Shown one piece after another: positions 4,331 through 23,615 of a stretch of 64,000 nucleotides of DNA. The stretch spans positions 176,656-240,655 of the forward strand of contig NZ_BMZH01000002.1 in NCBI RefSeq assembly GCF_014652695.1, in the 5' to 3' direction. The DNA is from Algimonas arctica. GTDB taxonomy: Bacteria; Pseudomonadota; Alphaproteobacteria; Caulobacterales; Maricaulaceae. Under the pieces are notes generated by a model. It was not told where the DNA came from. It did no database searches and was given only the letters and a program-made list of their open reading frames with translations. Every line of letters starts with the position of its first letter. The stretch's first letter is position 1. A program made the translations under genes and the position numbers.

Positions 4331-5554
4331 ATGTCCAAGCGTAAAAAAGTTGTTCTCGCCTATTCTGGCGGTCTTGATACCTCGATCATCCTGAAATGGT
4401 TGCAAGAGGAAAAAGGCTATGAGGTCGTCACCTTTACGGCGGACCTGGGTCAGGGCGAAGAACTGGAGCCTGCGCGCCGCAAGGCTGAGGCCGCTGGTGT
4501 CAAAGAAATCTACATTGATGACCTGCGCGAAGAATTTGTGCGCGATTTCGTCTTCCCGATGTTCCGCGCCAATACGGTTTATGAAGGGCTTTACCTGCTC
4601 GGCACGTCCATTGCGCGGCCGCTGATTTCCAAACGCCAGATCGAAATTGCGCATGAAGTCGGGGCCGACGCGGTCTGTCACGGCGCAACGGGCAAGGGCA
4701 ATGATCAGGTCCGGTTTGAACTGGCTTACTATGCGCTCGATCCAGAAATTAAAGTCATCGCCCCGTGGCGCGAATGGGAATTGAACTCCCGCACCTCACT
4801 GCTGGACTATGCCGAGAAACATGGCATTGAAATCGCGGCCGACAAGCGCGGCGAAGCGCCGTTTTCCGTCGATGCGAACCTGCTGCACACCTCCTCCGAA
4901 GGTAAAGTTCTGGAAGATCCGAATGAGGATGCGCCGGAATATGTTTATCAACGCACCGTATCCCCTGAGGCCGCACCGGACAAAGCCACCGTCATTGAGA
5001 TCGGATTTGAGCGCGGTGACGCCGTGTCGATTGATGGCGTCGCAATGTCGCCCGCCACCTTGCTGACTAAACTCAATGAGCTAGGCGGCGCGAACGGCAT
5101 TGGCCGTCTCGACCTGTTAGAAAACCGTTTTGTCGGCATGAAGTCACGCGGCGTCTATGAAACTCCGGGCGGGACAATTCTGTTGATGGCGCACCGCGGT
5201 ATTGAGCAGATTACGATGGATAAGGGCGCTGCGCACCTCAAAGATGAGCTGATGCCGAAATATGCCGAACTGATATACAATGGCTTCTGGTATTCACCTG
5301 AACGCGAAATGCTCCAAGCCGCTATCGATGCCAGCCAAGAGATGGTGACAGGCACGGTTCGCTTGAAACTCTACAAAGGCAATTGCGACGTCGTCGGCCG
5401 CGCCTCACCTTACTCGCTCTATAGCCAAGAACATGTCACTTTTGAAGAAGACGATGTTTATGATCAGGCCGATGCCGGCGGGTTCATCAAAATCAACGCC
5501 CTGCGTCTGCGCCTGCTAAAAGCGCGGGATCGTAAGGCGGGGAAGAATAACTAG
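4331..5554 (+). CDS. argG: argininosuccinate synthase
   Basis: Joins citrulline and aspartate with ATP to give argininosuccinate, the penultimate step of arginine synthesis; argH, the next enzyme, is at 56604 in this same window. The N-terminal PP-loop ATP-binding motif AYSGGLDTS is at residues 10-18, and the conserved [14 protein letters not shown] segment (citrulline/ATP site) follows near residue 117. The length of 407 is standard. There is no strong Shine-Dalgarno sequence before the ATG. It stands alone, not in an operon with other arg genes. Confidence 0.97.
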
Positions 5555-8438: not shown

Positions 8439-9725
8439 CTATGTATGGGAGTTCCTGTCTAACCACGCCTTGTAACGCTTCGTTTGCACGGCTTGATTTT
8501 TCTGCTGCACGAGCGACGCGACGACCGGATTGACCTTGTTTTTCGGCGCTTTTCCGTGGCTCATCCGGCGCAGGTTCGCTTTGGCGATGGCCATATTGGC
8601 GAGGCTTCGGATGGCAGGAATTTTCCAATTTACCGTCTGCACGGGGCCGGCGATATTTTCGCCCGCTTTCCAGCGATTGGGCAAATCCGGCGTAATAATC
8701 AGGGCCCGCGCCATGCCGACCATCGCGATTCCGGCGGTGCCGAGTACGCGGTCGGCCGTATCGCGCTGTGTCACGCCGCCGGTCACTATTAAGGGCATCG
8801 TCGCCGCCGTGGCAATTTGCTCTGCAAATTCGAGGAAAAACGCTTCGCGTCGAAGTGTGCTTTGACTGACGCGCCCATCCGCACTTTCGCCCATCATGGC
8901 GGAGCTTTCATACGTCCCGCCGGAAATTTCGACAAAATCAATCGCTTCTTTTCCGAGCCATTCGACGACTTGGGTTGCGTCCTTCACCTCAAACCCGCCT
9001 TTTTGGAAATCAGCTGAATTGAGCTTCACACCGACGATAAAGTTTGGGCCGACCCGATCACGGATCGAGCGGACAATCTCAAGCAAAAGCCGTGCGCGAT
9101 TTTTCAAGGACCCGCCCCATCCATCTTCGCGGCGATTGGTCAGGGGTGAGAGAAATTGCGCCAGCAGGTAGCCATGCGCCGCGTGGACTTGCACGCCGTC
9201 AAACCCGCACGCTTGCGCGGCCACTGCCGTCTCCCCGAAATGCCGGATCAGGCCACGGATTTCACCGTCAGTCATGGCGCGGGCGGAGGCGAACATATTA
9301 TTAATCGCGTCCGAACCCATATCGAGTTTCGAATCTGATGCGCTCACCGCCTCTTGGCCTTGCGCCGCATAGAGCTGCCGTCCCGGATGGCTGATCTGCA
9401 TGACCAATTTCGTATCATTCGCTTGGCCCGCTTGCGCCCAGCGTTCGAACCGCGCGCGCACGTCCGGATTATCTAGCGTGTCGCGTTTTAACACCACCGC
9501 GCCCGGACCAGTCAGAGCGGTTTCATCAACCATGACATTGCCCGTTAACAGCAGGCCTGCGCCGCCTGCCGCCCACGCCGAATAAAGATTGACCAATTGT
9601 TCGCCCGGCACTTGGCCCAGGCCCGAAACCTGGTCCGCCATGTTTTCTTCCATCGCGCCTTTGGCAATCCGGTTCGACAGGACGTGCCCACAAGCAAGCG
9701 TCAGGGGAGAGAAGAGTTCGGTCAT
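8439..9725 (-). CDS. old yellow enzyme family NADH:flavin oxidoreductase
   Basis: FMN-dependent ene-reductase-type enzyme of 428 residues with a TIM-barrel fold. Visible family landmarks are the HAAHGYLLAQFLSP motif (substrate/hydride site with the paired His and the Tyr), RREDGWGGSLKNRARL directly after it, and the phosphate-binding region LIVTGGVTQRDTADRVL. It lacks the C-terminal FAD/NAD domains of the 2,4-dienoyl-CoA reductases, so it is the single-domain form. The C-terminal 70 residues are basic and less conserved. The natural substrate cannot be told from sequence. Confidence 0.9.
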   Translation of the reverse strand: MTELFSPLTLACGHVLSNRIAKGAMEENMADQVSGLGQVPGEQLVNLYSAWAAGGAGLLLTGNVMVDETALTGPGAVVLKRDTLDNPDVRARFERWAQAGQANDTKLVMQISHPGRQLYAAQGQEAVSASDSKLDMGSDAINNMFASARAMTDGEIRGLIRHFGETAVAAQACGFDGVQVHAAHGYLLAQFLSPLTNRREDGWGGSLKNRARLLLEIVRSIRDRVGPNFIVGVKLNSADFQKGGFEVKDATQVVEWLGKEAIDFVEISGGTYESSAMMGESADGRVSQSTLRREAFFLEFAEQIATAATMPLIVTGGVTQRDTADRVLGTAGIAMVGMARALIITPDLPNRWKAGENIAGPVQTVNWKIPAIRSLANMAIAKANLRRMSHGKAPKNKVNPVVASLVQQKNQAVQTKRYKAWLDRNSHT

Positions 9726-9755
9726 ACCATCGCCCCTAGGGCATCTTGGATCAAA

Positions 9756-9782
9756 GAAAAAGGCTCCGCCAAAGCGAAGCCT
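9756..9782 (-). terminator. Rho-independent terminator
   Basis: On the minus strand GGCTTCGC pairs with GCGGAGCC around a short loop and is followed by TTTTTC. It lies downstream of the pyridoxamine-phosphate-oxidase-like gene and before the old yellow enzyme gene, so the two are probably separate transcripts. Confidence 0.7.
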
Positions 9783-9824
9783 GTATTCATATCTGGCGGT
9801 CTTGCCGCCACCGCAGCGTCCAGA

Positions 9825-10352
9825 TTAAGCGGCTATGATCTTGCTACTCCCAACGTCAGGCAGCGTGTCCGTTATATTGGCCTTGGCCGTTTCATAGGCA
9901 AATTTGAACGGATTTCCGGTCGAGGCCCAAACGGCCGCCGTGATCGGCACGAATTTCAACATCAGCATCTTCGGATCGCCTTTACCGTCCGGGTACCAGC
10001 TCGCGGCAATCGGATTCCAGAACCGCTCAATTAGGGTTGGATCATTCAACACAGGATAAATCGCGCCTTCGACGCACGCCTGATAATCACTCCCAATATG
10101 AGTTGCCATCACGCGGGCGCCCGGATTTTTCATGATGGCTTTGCCGAGGTCGGACGTGTTATCCGAGAAGAAATAGATCACGGAATCGCCGCCCTCTTCG
10201 ACCGTTTTGACCGTTTGCTTATCAATTTGCGGGGCCATCGGCTGCATATGTTCACTCGCAACGGGTGAACCCAGCATAACGCAGCGCGCGCCTTTAATTT
10301 CTTTGAGCAGCTGGAGTTTAGGTTCAGTTTCGAATTTCGATAGATCGGCCAT
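9825..10352 (-). CDS. pyridoxamine 5'-phosphate oxidase-like general stress protein
   Basis: Small FMN-binding split-barrel protein of 175 residues, resembling the general stress protein 26 group. Supporting features are the N-terminal barrel strand around GARCVMLGSPV, the DSVIYFFSDNTSDLGKAI segment and the C-terminal ASWYPDGKGDPKMLMLKFVP, a signature of this subfamily in which the protein binds FMN or FAD and is induced by stress. True PNPOx activity is unlikely because the substrate residues of PdxH are not apparent. It is a single gene with its own terminator downstream. Confidence 0.82.
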   Translation of the reverse strand: MADLSKFETEPKLQLLKEIKGARCVMLGSPVASEHMQPMAPQIDKQTVKTVEEGGDSVIYFFSDNTSDLGKAIMKNPGARVMATHIGSDYQACVEGAIYPVLNDPTLIERFWNPIAASWYPDGKGDPKMLMLKFVPITAAVWASTGNPFKFAYETAKANITDTLPDVGSSKIIAA

Positions 10353-10493
10353 TTGGCGGTTGCTCCATTGAGTGTGTTGAACCCAAACAACGCGTTCATA
10401 GTAAACGCAGTTCCCTTATGAGTTTACCGCCAGCAAATTTCGTCGAATGTATTGACCTTGGCCTATGAGTGAATTCACCCTAAACATTTGGTC

Positions 10494-11090
10494 GTGCGCA
10501 GACTCACACTCTTACTAATAATACTGAGCGCCGCTTGTGCGCCAACGCCACGTGAGAATCCGTTCGAACATTCGCCCGCAACATTTATGGCCGTTATTGC
10601 AGAGCCTGTTTCAACGCGGCCGGATGATAATTGGAACCCTGTCACAAGAATTCCCGGCACCGAAGAGAACGAGTACGTGGACACAATAATCGTCAGCAAT
10701 GGACAACCCTATTACCGTGAGTTCCGTGTCATTGATGACCTCGATAGCGGCTACCGTGGCCGCATAATTAACGCCGTTATTAAAACTGAATTTGAGTACA
10801 AGCTTTTAACAGACGTAGACAGGGTCCTTCTTTTTTTGAAGCGAGGTGGCGATAGTTTTTCTCAAGTTGAAGAATATGAAGTCTTTCCAACCAAACGGCG
10901 CGGGTGGGCAATATGTACAGGCACGCAACCCGAGCTCATACTAGAAACAGTGACATCACAACCGATCATGTTCGTTGATAGTCCCGCCATTGAACAAGAT
11001 CGTGAATCGACTCTGTGTACATATGGGGTTCCCATAGAGACGATAATTGAAATCCAAACCAGCTACTTTAACGAACGTCACGTTGATTGA
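10494..11090 (+). CDS. putative lipoprotein, unknown function
   Basis: Protein of about 198 residues with an N-terminal lipoprotein signal: basic start (MRRL), hydrophobic LTLLLIILSA and the lipobox SAAC. I prefer the GTG at 10494; a TTG at 10488 is also possible and no ATG is available. The mature part has alternating strands, few repeats and three further cysteines. Its base composition is visibly richer in A and T than the flanking genes, which may mark a recently acquired or fast-changing gene. The neighbours do not suggest a role. Confidence 0.6.
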   Translation: MRRLTLLLIILSAACAPTPRENPFEHSPATFMAVIAEPVSTRPDDNWNPVTRIPGTEENEYVDTIIVSNGQPYYREFRVIDDLDSGYRGRIINAVIKTEFEYKLLTDVDRVLLFLKRGGDSFSQVEEYEVFPTKRRGWAICTGTQPELILETVTSQPIMFVDSPAIEQDRESTLCTYGVPIETIIEIQTSYFNERHVD

Positions 11091-11326
11091 CGTCGCCGCC
11101 AAGCCTTCCAAAGCCCGTAACCGCTAATCAGCAACCAAAACACTTCGATCACGAAGCTGGCGAGATTAAAGGTGAAATAGAGCGACACCATAATCAGCAG
11201 CGCCCCGCTGCCATTGACCGCGGAAAAGCGCCAGTCCTGCGCCGGGAGGCGGTCCGTCTGAACACCCCAATAAGCGCATAAGATCAAGGACACGCCTATC
11301 AGGCCAATGAGGTCGGGAAGAGTCAT
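11078..11326 (-). CDS. small membrane protein, CBU_0592-like
   Basis: Protein of 82 residues with three hydrophobic helices: a first around DLIGLIGVSLILCAYWGV, then GSGALLIMVSLYF and a third, FVIEVFWLLISGYGLW, followed by a basic tail. The pattern NLASFVIEVFW matches the small family known from CBU_0592. The start at 11326 overlaps the stop of alkB by four bases (ATGA), so it is probably translated by coupling after alkB. It also overlaps the 3' end of the opposite-strand lipoprotein gene by 13 bases. Function unknown. Confidence 0.72.
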   Translation of the reverse strand: MTLPDLIGLIGVSLILCAYWGVQTDRLPAQDWRFSAVNGSGALLIMVSLYFTFNLASFVIEVFWLLISGYGLWKAWRRRQST

Positions 11327-11967
11327 ATCATGGCTTTCTTCGTGGTCACACCGCAAGCAGGCGCGCCAACAAACCGCATCGTTAAGTTAATCCGCCCGCC
11401 CTTGGGCACAAGCGCGCTTTGCCCGTAATAGACGCGGCTAACCCCGTGATAGCAACGGCGCGCGGGGCCGGACAGGACGACGACGTCGCCGGAGAAGAGT
11501 TTAATTCCCGCCGTCTTTCCGCCGCGCGCATCCCCGCCAATTCGAAACATCGCCGGATCGCCGAGGCTCACGGAGACGACGGGCGCATTCATGTCAAATT
11601 CGTCTCGGTCGATATGCATCCCCATTTTCGCGCCGTCACGATACCAATTGATCAGGCAGGCTTCCGGCGGCTCGGGCCAATCCGTGACCTCCCGCCATAA
11701 ATTTGAGAGTAAGTCCGGCAAGTCAGGCCATTGTACGCCTGTGTTCGGATGGGTTGCCTCATAACGATATCCCCCCTCACGATCCGTCACCCAGCCCAGC
11801 GGACCAAAATTACTCATGACGACAGAGAGCGGCGCGCCTGTGCGCGGCATGGTCGGTTGATAGAATGGGGCCTGCGCGGTTCCCGCCTTGACTGCATCAA
11901 TCAAGGCCACCTGTTGGTCGGGCGAGAAGTAGAGCGGATAGTGGGCGAAACCGTCGGGATAAGTCAT
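11323..11967 (-). CDS. alkB: alkylated DNA repair dioxygenase AlkB
   Basis: Fe(II)/2-oxoglutarate dioxygenase that removes 1-methyladenine and 3-methylcytosine from DNA by oxidation. The iron ligands are visible: H118 and D120 in MHIDRDE and H174 in RRCYHGVSR. The 2-oxoglutarate arginines are in RINLTMR (R192 and R198). The length of 214 is normal. There is no ada gene beside it; instead a small membrane gene overlaps its stop. It is divergent from dnaK, with 266 bases between. Confidence 0.93.
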   Translation of the reverse strand: MTYPDGFAHYPLYFSPDQQVALIDAVKAGTAQAPFYQPTMPRTGAPLSVVMSNFGPLGWVTDREGGYRYEATHPNTGVQWPDLPDLLSNLWREVTDWPEPPEACLINWYRDGAKMGMHIDRDEFDMNAPVVSVSLGDPAMFRIGGDARGGKTAGIKLFSGDVVVLSGPARRCYHGVSRVYYGQSALVPKGGRINLTMRFVGAPACGVTTKKAMI

Positions 11968-12101
11968 TTGTGCGCCCCTATATCATCCGGGCGAGCGAGC
12001 TAAAGAGACGATCGCGAGCGGATAACACCCGGTCTCGCTTCCCAAATTCGCCTAAATCCCATGAAACACCCACAGAGAGTGGATTTTCTCCCGCATGCCC
12101 C

Positions 12102-18681: not shown

Positions 18682-18873
18682 ATGGGTCAGTTATTCCGCA
18701 AAGAAGCGATGGAGCGACGGTCACGCGCTTTGTTTGGCGAGGTTATACTTCGTGGTCCTTTACCCGCATGGGTCGTTGTCGGGCTACTTTTTATAACGAT
18801 CGGGCTCATCGGGTTTGTGCTGTTTGGCATCAATGTCGGGGATCAAACGGTTTGGAGCTGGCTACGTGATTAG
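18682..18873 (+). CDS. 63-residue HlyD N-terminal-like membrane protein
   Basis: Small membrane protein with a cytoplasmic segment LFRKEAMERRSRALFGEVIL, one membrane helix (about 28-50, WVVVGLLFITIGLIGFVLFG) and a short outer tail ending WSWLRD. The cytoplasmic part is the N-terminal signature of HlyD-family adaptors that work with C39-peptidase exporters (LFR.EA....R...GEV.L). A normal adaptor continues for over 300 residues of periplasmic coiled coil and lipoyl/barrel domains; here the frame simply ends in TAG. The GTG start of the exporter lies within its last codons (8-base overlap), so the two are translationally coupled. It may be a minimal partner for the exporter or a truncated adaptor; the clean overlap favours a functional gene. 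Confidence 0.75.
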   Translation: MGQLFRKEAMERRSRALFGEVILRGPLPAWVVVGLLFITIGLIGFVLFGINVGDQTVWSWLRD

Positions 18874-20947
18874 TCGGTTCACCTCCAAAACACCCGTTAT
18901 TTTACAAACAGAAATGACGGAATGTGGCCTCGCCTGCTTGGCGATGGTCTCGCGCTTTCACGGCCATGATGTCGATTTGAACAGCCTGCGGGAAAAATAT
19001 CTTCTGTCCATGCGCGGCACGTCGCTCAAACAAATCATCAAAATTTCGGGCGAGTTGTCCCTGTCACCGCGTGCGCTCAAGGTGGATCTGGATCAGCTAC
19101 ACAAGCTGGCGCTACCCGCGATATTGCATTGGGATCTCAACCATTTTGTTGTGCTGACCCGTGTCCGCAACGACCATATCGAAATTATTGACCCCGGGAT
19201 TGGCCGCAGGACCTTAAAACTGTCCAAAGTTTCGGATCATTTTACGGGCATTGCGCTCGAACTTACCCCGGCGGCAGATTTCCAACCTGTCACCGACCGC
19301 ATCCGCCCGAAACTCTCTGATCTTTGGTCATCCCTTGTCGGGGCCAAACGCGCCGTCGCGCAAACGCTCGCCCTCTCCGTAGCCCTGCTCGCGACACTTC
19401 TCCTCGCGCCATTCTTCTTTCAACTGATTGTCGATGCGGTCCTGCCGAGCCCAGGGCAGCCCGGAGGGGATCGTGGCTTGCTCATCGCGTTGGCCGTTGG
19501 GTTTGGCGGATTAGCTGTGTTGCGCGCCGTGGTCGAAGCGGCGCGGGGCTATACGATTATCACCTTTGGCGCACAGCTATCGCGGCAAATGGTCGGAAAT
19601 ATTTTCCGCCATTTGATCCGTCTACCCGCACGCTATTTCGAACGTCGCCATGTCGGCGACATTATCAGCCGGATGAATTCAACGCAGCCGATCCAAGAAG
19701 CCCTCTCGCATTCGGTTGTCTCGGTCCTGATTGACGGGATTATGGCCGTCTTAATGCTGGTCATTATGTTCATGTTCTCGCCGCTCTTGGCGTTAATCGT
19801 GGTCGCCACGACGGCTTTGCTCGTTCTCGCGACCCTACTCATCTATCCACGCCTGCGCGCCACCCAAGAAGAGGCGATCTATGCGCGTGCGCTGGAGAAC
19901 AGCCACGTTATTGAGAGCATTCGCGCGTCAACGACTGTTAAATTGTTCGGGCGCGAAGCCGAACGCGAAGCAAGTTGGGCCAATCTATTCACGGATTTCG
20001 TCAACGCCGATGTTGGACACCAACGCTGGAATGTGGCGCAAACCTTCGTGCAAACGCTCATCATTGGCTTACAAGTTGTGGGCGTTGTTGTGGCCGCTGC
20101 TTGGGGCATGACGCAGCCAGGGTCGACGTTTACAGTCGGCATGCTTGTCGCCTTTTTGATCTACCGCCAGTATTTTTCCGACGCCGTGGTGCAGCTTGTT
20201 ACCAAGGGCAATGAGTTTCGCCTGCTTTCGCTTCACCTCGACCGACTGGCCGATATTGTTCATGCTCGCACAGAGACGGATCAAGCGGGATATGAGCCCT
20301 TAGGGGACGTCAAAGGTCGGATCACATTGGATGCGGTGACCTTCGCTTATTCGTCTGAGGATCCCAATGTCGTCACAGACTTTACGCTCGACGTTTCCGC
20401 TGGCGAAATGGTGACTCTGACAGGCCCAAGCGGGGGCGGGAAAACCACCTTAATGAAGCTCATGTTGGGGCTTTATGCGCCGATCGACGGTCATGTGAAA
20501 ATTGATGGCCGCGACCTATCTACCATTGATCCCTCCGCCTGGCGTAACCGTGTTGGCGTTGTCATGCAGGACGACCGCCTTCTCTCTGGGACTATTGCGG
20601 ATAATATCGCGTTCTTCGATCCTGAAATTGACATGCAGCGGGTCACGCGCGCCGCGAGCGCCGCCCGCATCCACGACACAATCGTTGCGATTCCTATGAA
20701 TTACCTCGCCATGATCGGTGATATGGGATCAATTCTGTCAGGCGGACAGAAACAACGCTTGCTGCTGGCGCGCGCGCTCTATCAAGAACCCGATGTGCTT
20801 TTCCTTGATGAAGGAACAGCGAACCTTGATGTCGAAACAGAGGCAGAAATCGTCAGCCTTGTAGCAGGATTGGCAATAACGCGGGTTATTGTCGCCCACC
20901 GCCCTGCCTTCCTTGAGGCCAGCGACCGAATTATCCAGATACCGTAG
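18866..20947 (+). CDS. C39-peptidase-containing ABC exporter for double-glycine peptides
   Basis: A 693-residue peptidase-containing ABC transporter that cuts double-glycine leaders and exports the released peptide across the inner membrane. The N-terminal C39 domain has oxyanion Q14, catalytic C20 (TECGLACLAM), H93 (HWDLNHFVVL) and D109 (IIDPGIGRR). Six membrane helices follow. The nucleotide-binding domain has Walker A GPSGGGKTT, signature LSGGQKQRLLLARAL, Walker B VLFLDEGTANLD and H-loop VIVAHRP, so all catalytic parts look intact. The GTG at 18866 is chosen because it overlaps the upstream gene and places the peptidase at the N-terminus; the frame is open a little further upstream. A GG-leader gene lies 211 bases downstream and is the obvious substrate. 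Confidence 0.93.
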   Translation: MISRFTSKTPVILQTEMTECGLACLAMVSRFHGHDVDLNSLREKYLLSMRGTSLKQIIKISGELSLSPRALKVDLDQLHKLALPAILHWDLNHFVVLTRVRNDHIEIIDPGIGRRTLKLSKVSDHFTGIALELTPAADFQPVTDRIRPKLSDLWSSLVGAKRAVAQTLALSVALLATLLLAPFFFQLIVDAVLPSPGQPGGDRGLLIALAVGFGGLAVLRAVVEAARGYTIITFGAQLSRQMVGNIFRHLIRLPARYFERRHVGDIISRMNSTQPIQEALSHSVVSVLIDGIMAVLMLVIMFMFSPLLALIVVATTALLVLATLLIYPRLRATQEEAIYARALENSHVIESIRASTTVKLFGREAEREASWANLFTDFVNADVGHQRWNVAQTFVQTLIIGLQVVGVVVAAAWGMTQPGSTFTVGMLVAFLIYRQYFSDAVVQLVTKGNEFRLLSLHLDRLADIVHARTETDQAGYEPLGDVKGRITLDAVTFAYSSEDPNVVTDFTLDVSAGEMVTLTGPSGGGKTTLMKLMLGLYAPIDGHVKIDGRDLSTIDPSAWRNRVGVVMQDDRLLSGTIADNIAFFDPEIDMQRVTRAASAARIHDTIVAIPMNYLAMIGDMGSILSGGQKQRLLLARALYQEPDVLFLDEGTANLDVETEAEIVSLVAGLAITRVIVAHRPAFLEASDRIIQIP

Positions 20948-21158
20948 AGCGGGATTTATACATTTACACCCCACTATTGCGTGAAATTTATAATTATACC
21001 TCCTTTACGTGTATAAAATACCGCGTTTTAACAGTCTGTTAACCATAATTGTCCCGATTTAGCGACTTAGCGCTTGTTAACGATGACTGAGTCTTGTCTA
21101 AATTGGTACTCACGAGTGGTATCCTCCGCTCGTGTCACATCTAGAGGGATCAACTCAC
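20948..21158 (+). promoter_or_regulatory. AT-rich regulatory region before the GG-peptide gene
   Basis: This 211-base stretch is markedly AT-rich compared with its neighbours and holds no convincing gene. It contains the CtrA-type box at 21028-21043, a second half-site TGTTAACGAT at 21075-21084 that repeats TGTTAACCAT at 21037-21046, and a GANTC methylation site (GAGTC) at 21089-21093. A loose promoter is TTGTTA (21074-21079), 17 bases, TCTAAA (21097-21102). The ribosome site GAGGGA is at 21144-21149. Confidence 0.55.
21028..21043 (+). promoter_or_regulatory. CtrA-type binding box
   Basis: The sequence TTAACAGTCTGTTAAC is an exact TTAA-N7-TTAAC, the consensus for the alphaproteobacterial cell-cycle regulator CtrA. 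It is also a palindrome (TTAACAG-T-CTGTTAA). It lies 116 bases before the GG-peptide start. Binding by CtrA is inferred from the match and from the likely lineage. Confidence 0.6.
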
Positions 21159-21227
21159 ATGCGTGAACTTACAGTTGAAGAACTTGACGTCGTAACCGGT
21201 GGCGCACCGATTATCGTCGACTTTTAG
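21159..21227 (+). CDS. 22-residue double-glycine precursor with a seven-residue core
   Basis: Tiny gene that I read by hand. It has GAGGGA nine bases before an ATG, a leader MRELTVEELDVVTGG and a core APIIVDF, then TAG. The leader fits the Gram-negative GG-leader consensus (MRELT..EL..V.GG, as in microcin V). The cut after the second Gly would release a heptapeptide with two acidic-side features only (one Asp, free C-terminus) and a hydrophobic centre. The upstream C39 exporter is the natural processing enzyme. Directly after the stop, a strong terminator ends the transcript. Such a short core is more like a signalling peptide than a pore-forming bacteriocin, but that is inference. An alternative is a gene shortened by a nonsense mutation: the frame stays open for 24 codons past the TAG. 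Confidence 0.72.
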   Translation: MRELTVEELDVVTGGAPIIVDF

Positions 21228-21266
21228 TCAAACGATAGCGCGAGCTATCAATACTATGTGGACTAC

Positions 21267-21292
21267 AACCCGCTCTTTGAGCGGGTTTTTTC
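21267..21292 (+). terminator. Rho-independent terminator after the GG-peptide gene
   Basis: AACCCGCTC and GAGCGGGTT form a perfect nine-pair stem with a TTT loop, followed by a run of T. It begins 39 bases after the TAG of the peptide gene. It marks the end of a real, short transcript and supports the 22-codon gene. Confidence 0.9.
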
Positions 21293-21362
21293 TTGCACCT
21301 GAACACGCTTCCTTAAGGTCATTTGTGTAAATTGAAGCGAAACTGGAACCTATTTTATTCAG

Positions 21363-23615
21363 ATGCTTAGAAGTCTGCTTGTAATTTTTTGTGCATCCCT
21401 TTGCTCATTCACTGTAGCATTGGCCGCTGATGCACGCCCAATTAATGAGTCAATTGTCGAGTTTCTCAATCAAAAAGAATGGACCCCGCTAGAACTCTTA
21501 TCATCGACAAACACTGAAAAAATGACGGTTAAGCTCATTCAAGAGGCCTCAGAAGCACTTTATACATTTGATTCAGACCGGCTTGGAAAATCGATCACAG
21601 ACGCCAAGAATGCCGACATCGTCGGCGATATACATTGGGATCGAACGCTCCTCTTTGTCGAAGGTATTTCGGATATCATTGCGCAAAGTGATGACGCCAC
21701 GCGCACAGAAAACTTGATCCAGTATTTGGATGGTTTCGGTTTCGCAGATGATTGGTTTTTAAATTCAGTCTCTCAAAGCCTCTCGGCCTTCTTATACGTG
21801 TCCCGAAACCAACTTCTCGTCGGCACAGAACGTATTGATTCCGCGATGAAAGTCATCCCGAGTGAGCTGTCCCCACAGGTGACGTCGGCCCGTATTCTGG
21901 CCTCTGACATCGCGATGGTCTTGCATGGCTTGCAAGGGAAACCCGACTTTATGCTTGAAGCCGCTAGGCTGCAAAGTCAGGCCAAGGCGAGTATTGGGGA
22001 AACCATTGATCGTTATGAGCTCATGACAAACTTTGTGTATGCCCTGAATCGCGCGCGTGAGTACGAAAGCGCCGCACAGGTCGCCGAGTTACTTATTGTA
22101 GAGCCTCACTCTGAGACAACTGCGTCTGGCGTTGCAGAAGCCTATATGGCGGCGACGTTTAATGAGATTGGCGATTATAATCGTGCCGAAAGATTGTCTC
22201 TCACCGCCTTGGAGAGCACAACGCACGCCGCGATTGAATCCCGCGCGACCCTCGAACGTTTGGTTGCATTGGCCGGGCAAGGTAAAGTTGCTGACGCTGA
22301 AAGTCTCATGACAACACGGGGCTGGAAACATAGTCCCGGTGAATTACTCAAAGACATTGATAACCAGTCGATCCTACACGCCGAAGCGCTTCTCGCGATG
22401 CACCGCGACGAATCCCCTTATGCGCTCGCGCTGATGAAGCGCCGGGCCGATCTCCTGATCAATCAAGTTCAGTCCGCAAATTCAGCTGATATTAGCGCCA
22501 TGCTGTCTAATTTGGAAAACACACGGGACCGACAGGTCGAACGCGAAGGCGCGCTGCAACGCGAAACGGAGATGAGAGCCGTACAGCTTGAGCAAAAGAC
22601 CAAGCTGAACCGCTTGCTCTGGGTTCTGATTGGCGGGCTAACGATTGCCTTTAACTTCTTGCTCGCTTTCCTGCGCTACCGCGAAAAACTCAGTGTGAAA
22701 GTTCAAAGCTTGCAAGAAGATGCGCTCTCGGCTGAAAAAATGAAGACTGAATTTCTCGGCCTTATTAATCACGAAATCCGCACCCCTCTCAACGGTATTA
22801 TCGGGATAAGTGACGCGATGATCCATCATGCGCCCAACCCAACAATGCGCGCACAAGCCGAAATCGTACAAGAAAGCGGGCAGCTCCTCTTTGACCTGCT
22901 GGATAGTCTGATCACCATGTCGACGATTGAGGGCAATCGCCTGTCTTTAGACAAAGAAGAGGACGTCCTCGCGAAAACCATTCGGCGTGAAGTAGCCGAA
23001 TGGGACAATGCCGCGGCCAAAAAAGATCTCATCTTCACTCACTTCATTGGCGCAGAGTTAGAAGACGCGGTCATTACCGATCACAAGCGCATTCGCCAAA
23101 GCCTGCACTATTTATTGTCCAATGCTATCCGCTTTACCCAAGTGGGGCGCGTGCATCTCCATGCGACAGCGATACAAGACAGGAACGGCCATCTAGACGT
23201 AACCATCGTTGTTGCTGATACGGGTCAAGGGATCAGTGAAGATGTTCAATCGCGGCTGTTCCAGCCCTTCTTGCAAGCTGACGCGACTATGACACGCAAA
23301 TATGGCGGAGCCGGCCTCAGCTTGGCCATTGCGCGTAAGCTAGCGCGTATGATGCGGGGCGACTTAGTCGTTAAATCACGCGAAGGCCGCGGGACTGAGT
23401 TTACCTTTACGGCCCGGATTCCTCTGGCTGAACCCACGGCACACGCTTTGCCAGATGACCGCGCAGCCGCCGCAACGGCCCCTCTTCTTCTGACGCTGGA
23501 TGATGTCGAGGAACCGGAAGCAATTATTGATCTGATGCTCGGCGAGCAACTCCTCGGCGCGCGCCCAGTCGCTCTAGGTGAAACAAGCACGAGAAATTAT
23601 AAAGCCACCGGCTAA
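21363..23615 (+). CDS. sensor histidine kinase with TPR-like extracytoplasmic domain
   Basis: A 750-residue membrane kinase. It has a signal peptide (about 1-22), then some 360 residues of helical, TPR-like repeats predicted outside the cytoplasmic membrane, a coiled coil (about 380-415), one membrane helix (about 418-438), a HisKA domain with H470 (GLINHEIRTPLNGIIG) and a HATPase domain with N587 (YLLSNAIRFT), DTGQGIS near 619 and a GGAGLSLAI lid. There is no receiver domain; the last 60 residues are a tail ending RNYKATG. No response regulator gene is adjacent. It lies 136 bases after the GG-peptide stop, beyond the terminator, so it has its own promoter. By position and by the peptide-binding habit of TPR domains, it is a candidate receptor for the exported peptide; that is inference. 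No strong ribosome site precedes the ATG. Confidence 0.88.
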   Translation: MLRSLLVIFCASLCSFTVALAADARPINESIVEFLNQKEWTPLELLSSTNTEKMTVKLIQEASEALYTFDSDRLGKSITDAKNADIVGDIHWDRTLLFVEGISDIIAQSDDATRTENLIQYLDGFGFADDWFLNSVSQSLSAFLYVSRNQLLVGTERIDSAMKVIPSELSPQVTSARILASDIAMVLHGLQGKPDFMLEAARLQSQAKASIGETIDRYELMTNFVYALNRAREYESAAQVAELLIVEPHSETTASGVAEAYMAATFNEIGDYNRAERLSLTALESTTHAAIESRATLERLVALAGQGKVADAESLMTTRGWKHSPGELLKDIDNQSILHAEALLAMHRDESPYALALMKRRADLLINQVQSANSADISAMLSNLENTRDRQVEREGALQRETEMRAVQLEQKTKLNRLLWVLIGGLTIAFNFLLAFLRYREKLSVKVQSLQEDALSAEKMKTEFLGLINHEIRTPLNGIIGISDAMIHHAPNPTMRAQAEIVQESGQLLFDLLDSLITMSTIEGNRLSLDKEEDVLAKTIRREVAEWDNAAAKKDLIFTHFIGAELEDAVITDHKRIRQSLHYLLSNAIRFTQVGRVHLHATAIQDRNGHLDVTIVVADTGQGISEDVQSRLFQPFLQADATMTRKYGGAGLSLAIARKLARMMRGDLVVKSREGRGTEFTFTARIPLAEPTAHALPDDRAAAATAPLLLTLDDVEEPEAIIDLMLGEQLLGARPVALGETSTRNYKATG

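Follow-up and report, generated by a model that had tools for sequence, protein, structure and literature searches.

A conserved gene cassette in marine Gram-negative bacteria that may link a tiny double-glycine peptide to a histidine kinase with a TPR outer domain

In streptococci, the ComC/ComAB/ComD and BlpC/BlpAB/BlpH systems consist of a double-glycine pheromone, a C39 peptidase-containing ABC exporter (PCAT) and a histidine kinase. The cassette described here shares with them a pre-peptide with a double-glycine leader, a C39 exporter and a cognate membrane kinase, all encoded by linked genes, whereas a linked response regulator, also typical of those systems, is missing, and most relatives carry the receiver as part of the kinase. 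It further differs in its Gram-negative host, a core of only 5-9 residues, the presence of a mini-HlyD and a kinase, usually hybrid, that would sense with a periplasmic TPR domain. With the RRNPP receptors (Rap, NprR, AimR), which respond to pheromones of 5-10 residues, it has in common a TPR solenoid and a very short peptide gene; those receptors, however, are cytoplasmic and have been described from Bacillota and the phages of Bacillota, whereas the cassette TPR is the outer domain of a kinase in the membrane. Membership in RRNPP is therefore met in fold only and fails on the cytoplasmic receptor of an imported peptide. By analogy, the function of the cassette resembles the streptococcal systems and its receptor fold resembles RRNPP.

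Class II microcin type I secretion (MchF/CvaB type, RaxB) likewise uses a C39 exporter, a GG leader and an HlyD-type N-terminus, but in the cassette the adaptor has no periplasmic part, the product is tiny, an immunity gene is absent and a sensor kinase has been added. Because the full adaptor is absent, we do not regard the cassette as class II microcin secretion. HetC of Nostoc is a C39 exporter without a linked membrane-fusion protein, for which periplasmic export in regulation has been suggested (PMC10986499), although no GG substrate has been identified for it and neither a mini-HlyD nor a TPR kinase has been described. FimS of Porphyromonas gingivalis is a sensor kinase with periplasmic TPR motifs and a suspected polypeptide binder (PMC11053733); in this member of the Bacteroidota, however, the signal is unknown and no linked peptide gene or exporter has been described. 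In reviews, peptide signals are the paradigm for Gram-positives, and Proteobacteria are said typically to use small molecules made by enzymes (PMC13220807, PMC10075063). No published description of the cassette was found in the open literature, subscription papers and preprints being outside the scope of the search, and it is probably an unrecognised mode of tiny-peptide signalling for Gram-negative cells.

The locus lies in a 64-kb stretch of Algimonas arctica DNA, referred to below as the window, and comprises the following features.

18682-18873, plus strand: mini-HlyD of 63 aa, the N-terminus (cytoplasmic and transmembrane) of an HlyD-type adaptor with a short tail and no periplasmic part
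18866-20947, plus strand: PCAT exporter; GTG start assumed, with a longer TTG ORF from 18815
21039-21046, plus strand: TTAACCAT, CtrA half-site sequence, 120 bases 5' of the peptide start
21111-21134, plus strand: hairpin with a stem of 9 pairs, 5' of the ribosome-binding site of the peptide gene
21159-21203, plus strand: double-glycine leader MRELTVEELDVVTGG, 15 residues, near-invariant among 16 aligned peptides
21204-21227, plus strand: core APIIVDF and TAG stop; xPIIVDF-like cores occur in relatives
21267-21287, plus strand: intrinsic terminator of 9 pairs, separating the peptide gene from the kinase
21363-23615, plus strand: sensor histidine kinase of 750 aa (Pfam, hydropathy, AF2 model and structure comparison)
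about 21420-22619, plus strand: TPR outer domain of the kinase (AF2 model, structure comparison), preceded by an N-terminal hydrophobic segment
within the kinase: transmembrane segment at residues 418-436 (hydropathy), HisKA at 460-524 and HATPase_c at 573-685 (Pfam)

A sequence-only reading of the window had proposed four linked elements in this order, and all four were found: an HlyD-anchor-like protein of 63 residues, which aligns to the N-termini of full-length HlyDs; a complete double-glycine exporter overlapping it by 8 bases, as the likely GTG start at 18866 requires; a peptide gene of 22 codons (21159-21227; product MRELTVEELDVVTGG-APIIVDF) followed by the 9-pair terminator; and a histidine kinase with a TPR-like outer domain. 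Within this genome the leader pattern has a single occurrence; it is present in 23 of 398 genomes of the order, while a reversed control pattern gave zero among the matches listed for the same 398 genomes. Since the pattern is rare, the control is empty and the full order recurs in relatives, the four-element observation is confirmed as real and far beyond chance.

The order of mini-HlyD, exporter, precursor and kinase, which the same reading had suggested searching for, is repeated in 31 genomes in which the stretch was read directly (by eye for the mini-HlyD of L090; the L088 contig stops before the kinase). Close exporters were found in the majority of genomes from the genus and also in several further genera of Robiginitomaculaceae, the family to which the organism is assigned by its named relatives (Algimonas, Litorimonas, Hellea and Robiginitomaculum). 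Across the 31 genomes, the gap from exporter to precursor is 134-277 bp, the kinase follows 54-188 bp further on and precursors typically span 20-26 codons, more where cores are tandem; by eye, a hairpin with a T-run resembling a terminator lies 3' of the peptide gene in most relatives. Neighbouring genes vary, the commonest flanking family occurring in just 8 of 30 loci, and among the flanking genes of these 30 loci there was no conserved fifth gene. As flanking genes differ between loci, the cassette itself is the conserved unit, in keeping with the expectation that leader and short core would be kept while flanks drift. Exporter-kinase loci without a GG gene, which would have spoken against the proposal, were not encountered in the exporter clade, nor were loci without a kinase, among those complete enough to judge. 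The cassette is kept in dozens of marine bacteria, and this conservation is legible directly in the sequences.

The window exporter, the sole C39 match found in the 3.25-Mb assembly, scored above the Pfam cut-off for Peptidase_C39, ABC_membrane and ABC_tran. Its catalytic-type positions C17, H90 and D106 do not vary across 16 relatives, and three domains in one chain together with catalytic Cys/His/Asp satisfy the definition of a PCAT. In a tree of 62 exporters, the 34 associated with a mini-HlyD formed a single clade (support 100/99, one change), whereas full-length HlyD is found in other exporter clades. Sister exporters mostly have full-length HlyD, lack the TPR kinase and go with GG peptides that are longer or undetected: an HlyD of 406-412 aa lies immediately upstream of the exporter at L048, L091, L093, L094 and L097, and one of 412 aa downstream at L092; long GG peptides were seen at L048, L091 and L092, and none at L093, L094, L096 and L097 by the pattern used. 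No TPR kinase was found near sister-group exporters in the DNA examined around them. From the exporter tree and the HlyD N-terminus retained in the mini-HlyD, it is likely that the cassette derives from a secretion system of the microcin type that gained a kinase and whose adaptor was cut back by loss of the periplasmic part.

Such an ancestry raises the possibility that the locus is still a microcin or bacteriocin system of the classical kind whose product happens to be unusually small, and in which the kinase would be a regulator or immunity sensor. Exporter and leader do descend from microcin-type systems, and the near sister exporters at L048, L091 and L092 serve longer GG peptides. A class II microcin, however, has tens of residues and an immunity gene, whereas products here have 5-9 residues in nearly all loci and no neighbour is shared; the absence of an immunity gene, which the sequence-only reading had held against a classical bacteriocin, extends to the relatives, among whose neighbours no conserved one was found. 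The adaptor channel part is missing everywhere, and the core outlasts leader and exporter (see below). We consider this explanation very unlikely.

A few other exporter loci were observed. At L096, an HlyD of 167 aa (9498-10001), between stub and full adaptor in length, lies directly 5' of a sister-group exporter; no Pfam domain was found in it, and the TPR kinase is absent there. A second type of C39 exporter (10001-12040, 44-45% identity) occurs in Algimonas and Hellea at L131 and L138, where the script found no HlyD directly upstream, TPR kinase or GG peptide. In a Pseudomonadales MAG (L102, 8537-9095), three distinct double-glycine peptides stand in a row 5' of a C39 exporter.

The mini-HlyD is a separate short ORF with an HlyD-like start in 31 of 31 cassette loci. 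It measures 63-105 aa by script (most 63-88), has a single hydrophobic segment, can be aligned to the N-terminus of full-length HlyDs and lacks the adaptor domain; the channel part is missing at every cassette locus, and no linked full-length membrane-fusion protein, required for tripartite microcin type I secretion, is present in the 31 loci. It is conceivable that the stub is a decaying remnant of a lost adaptor and that the exporter borrows a full-length one to carry the core across both membranes, in which case the same kinase would read an ordinary extracellular quorum signal. The genome does hold further type I secretion adaptors, and in another genome (G018) the only exporter accompanying precursor and kinase is a distant full-HlyD one. 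Unlike a decaying gene, though, the short ORF keeps a conserved N-terminus, transmembrane segment and tail in 31 genomes; because it is retained as an ORF of its own despite sequence drift, decay was judged unlikely, and we regard the borrowed adaptor as an unlikely, though not a negligible, explanation.

The 22-codon product is too short for a formal profile match; its best matches, all sub-threshold, were double-glycine bacteriocin leaders (NF038167, E 0.0027; TIGR01847, E 0.068). Among 16 aligned peptides the leader is near-invariant (consensus MREL[TS]xEExExVxGG), its codon changes in the closest pairs (Algimonas) being mostly synonymous, and the core is usually xPIIVDF-like among relatives. 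The consensus leader claimed for the window thus stands, as does the core of seven residues, but the latter length does not generalize: relatives vary from about 5 to 9 residues, sometimes with 2-4 tandem copies. A longer microcin hidden by an early TAG was considered and rejected, as in relatives the frame either ends after a few residues or carries further copies of the core; the early stop occurs in them too, and no full-length microcin with a TAG unique to this strain was found. One locus (L089, 12194-12367) has an atypical core of 31 residues (TKSAEKTEKQATESAIPEIDCLNRRRRACGA), with leader, mini-HlyD and kinase as usual.

Precursors of modified peptides (RiPPs) commonly have double-glycine leaders, and modification is invisible in DNA. 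The core could accordingly be such a peptide, with enzymes encoded elsewhere, that acts otherwise than via the kinase. We find this highly improbable: no modification enzyme common to the loci lies next to them, cores such as RSIKT, KRLKIKV and FPIIIG lack a fixed Cys/Ser/Thr pattern, and the constant partner is the kinase.

Tandem cores, with 2-4 copies each, were found in eight loci: FPIDIEV (two copies), FPIIIG, TPIDIEL, LPIDIEV and GPVIIET (three each) and IPVIDF, LPADIEW and RSIKT (four each). Pheromones repeated in tandem are already known from phage Rap-Phr systems (PMC11343458). In the five tandem loci tested, core copies vary in DNA while remaining identical in protein, and the spacers between cores are unrelated. 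The chance of all differences being synonymous, by a simple per-site estimate, was 0.014 for FPIIIG, 4e-4 for both RSIKT and FPIDIEV, 1e-5 for TPIDIEL and 6e-6 for IPVIDF. As far as can be judged from the sequences alone, the repeated cores are under selection at the amino-acid level.

In three family genomes (G004, G690, which is 73% complete, and G345), the kinase is present while no exporter exceeded the search threshold. In each, an ORF for a core without leader lies immediately 5' of the kinase, before a terminator-like hairpin; an ORF of this kind is expected in about 1/2000 shuffles of each region.

L167, 5406-5432, minus strand: MRGPIIIL
L170, 4315-4344: VTKNPIIIG (GTG start)
L171, upstream of the kinase at 5248, minus strand: MSIRKQPIVDF

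In G018, the kinase is preceded by a GG precursor that holds three GPVIIET cores, and the exporter is elsewhere, beside a full-length HlyD. Across these loci, then, the pairing of core and kinase endures although leader and local exporter may be gained or lost; that core and kinase are retained in the absence of leader and exporter is read from the genomes themselves.

A short ORF followed directly by a terminator before the kinase might also be a transcription attenuator that controls the kinase, an Ile/Val-codon-rich leader peptide whose product is irrelevant. Cores are often Ile/Val-rich, leaderless forms would suffice, and an Rfam scan, which gave sub-threshold matches only, included one to the Trp leader (25 bits vs. 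a gathering score of 41). On this account, however, neither the double-glycine leader nor the linked C39 exporter would have a role; the RSIKT and KRLKIKV cores have no Ile/Val run, and tandem cores, with unrelated spacers between them, preserve amino acids rather than codons. Attenuation is the least probable of the explanations weighed here.

The kinase matched HisKA and HATPase_c in Pfam. An N-terminal hydrophobic segment was predicted by hydropathy in nearly all kinases and a single transmembrane segment just 5' of HisKA in those read that far, which would place the TPR domain outside the inner membrane. An AF2 model of the outer domain, based on an alignment of 29 such domains (A4), was all helical with a mean pLDDT of 89. 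Its top structural matches in VIA-align 2 were Rap and NprR with peptides (Z 16.9-16.1), although generic TPR proteins were nearly equal (LGN, for example, at Z 15.0), and Foldseek E-values were weak; sequence profiles likewise retrieve TPR proteins. The TPR-like domain suspected in the sequence-only reading is accordingly supported, and the model shows a predicted TPR solenoid compatible with, rather than proof of, peptide binding. Of 137 family genomes, 43 have a match to the A4 profile; the rest of a 289-genome class sample gave one weak match. A C-terminal receiver ends the kinases of most relatives (by alignment, and by Pfam in L167, L079 and L086). It is absent from the window kinase and from L033, and in L032 it apparently lacks the phospho-acceptor Asp; by this comparison, the window kinase has lost its receiver. 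Three results, namely the tandem cores with synonymous differences, the leaderless cores and the modelled solenoid nearest to Rap and NprR, point to the short core as the putative active unit.

Cumulatively, these findings lead us to a reading that we hold to be likely, in the absence of binding or processing data: a hexa- or heptapeptide, matured by the exporter and delivered to the periplasm, would be read by the TPR kinase, making the locus a self-contained signalling cassette. The 22-codon gene would give a pre-peptide, from which the C39 domain would remove the 15-residue double-glycine leader (cleavage of this peptide is inferred), and the ABC transporter would export the core of 6-7 residues from the cytoplasm. 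Since the mini-HlyD keeps the cytoplasmic and inner-membrane parts without the periplasmic channel part, the core probably ends up in the periplasm rather than being piped through TolC. Being small, it may leave for other cells via porins, an outer-membrane route that is likewise inferred. It would then bind the periplasmic TPR domain of the adjacent kinase, again by inference, and the kinase, a hybrid in most relatives, would signal by phosphotransfer to an inferred output pathway. Against this mechanism, leaderless cores have no obvious route to the periplasm and would need another export route; no linked response regulator was conserved among locus neighbours; and co-divergence of core and TPR was not detected (partial Mantel, 24 loci, exporter and kinase divergence removed; partial r -0.17, p 0.92), nor did core net charge, judged by eye, show any clear general relation to the TPR. 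The microcin, attenuator and RiPP explanations nevertheless fit worse than an exported peptide read by a TPR kinase. A Gram-negative secreted short-peptide system with a periplasmic TPR kinase, itself offered as inference in the earlier reading, is supported in this way, while direct peptide recognition is still inferred. If true, dimorphic marine bacteria would offer a peptide signal of Proteobacteria for which a candidate receptor is at hand, and the single, tandem and leaderless cores would be a natural series for studying the evolution of such signals.

The sequence TTAACCAT is that of a CtrA half-site (PMC3692519). It occurs once in the window, as the copy 5' of the peptide gene, and is found in 15 of 37 upstream regions, where shuffles would give 0.6; CtrA control of the cassette is inferred from it. 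A fuller and more tentative reading, which we put at somewhat below even chances, sees in these Alphaproteobacteria a novel kind of peptide signalling, in which a hexapeptide passes to the periplasm through an adaptor-stripped microcin-type exporter to a TPR kinase under CtrA cell-cycle control, with tandem and leaderless offshoots, and possibly acts as an autocrine timer, that is, within the envelope, as much as a quorum signal. The statistics for TTAACCAT and for the hairpins are descriptive: other intergenic regions of these genomes did not serve as background, and the loci, being related, lack independence. Over the 75 bases preceding the start, hairpins reached 7.7 pairs vs. 6.46 +/- 0.20 in shuffles (37 loci), whereas in a control region they were not longer than in shuffles. 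Hairpin stems 5' of the start are seen in many relatives, with different sequences at similar positions.
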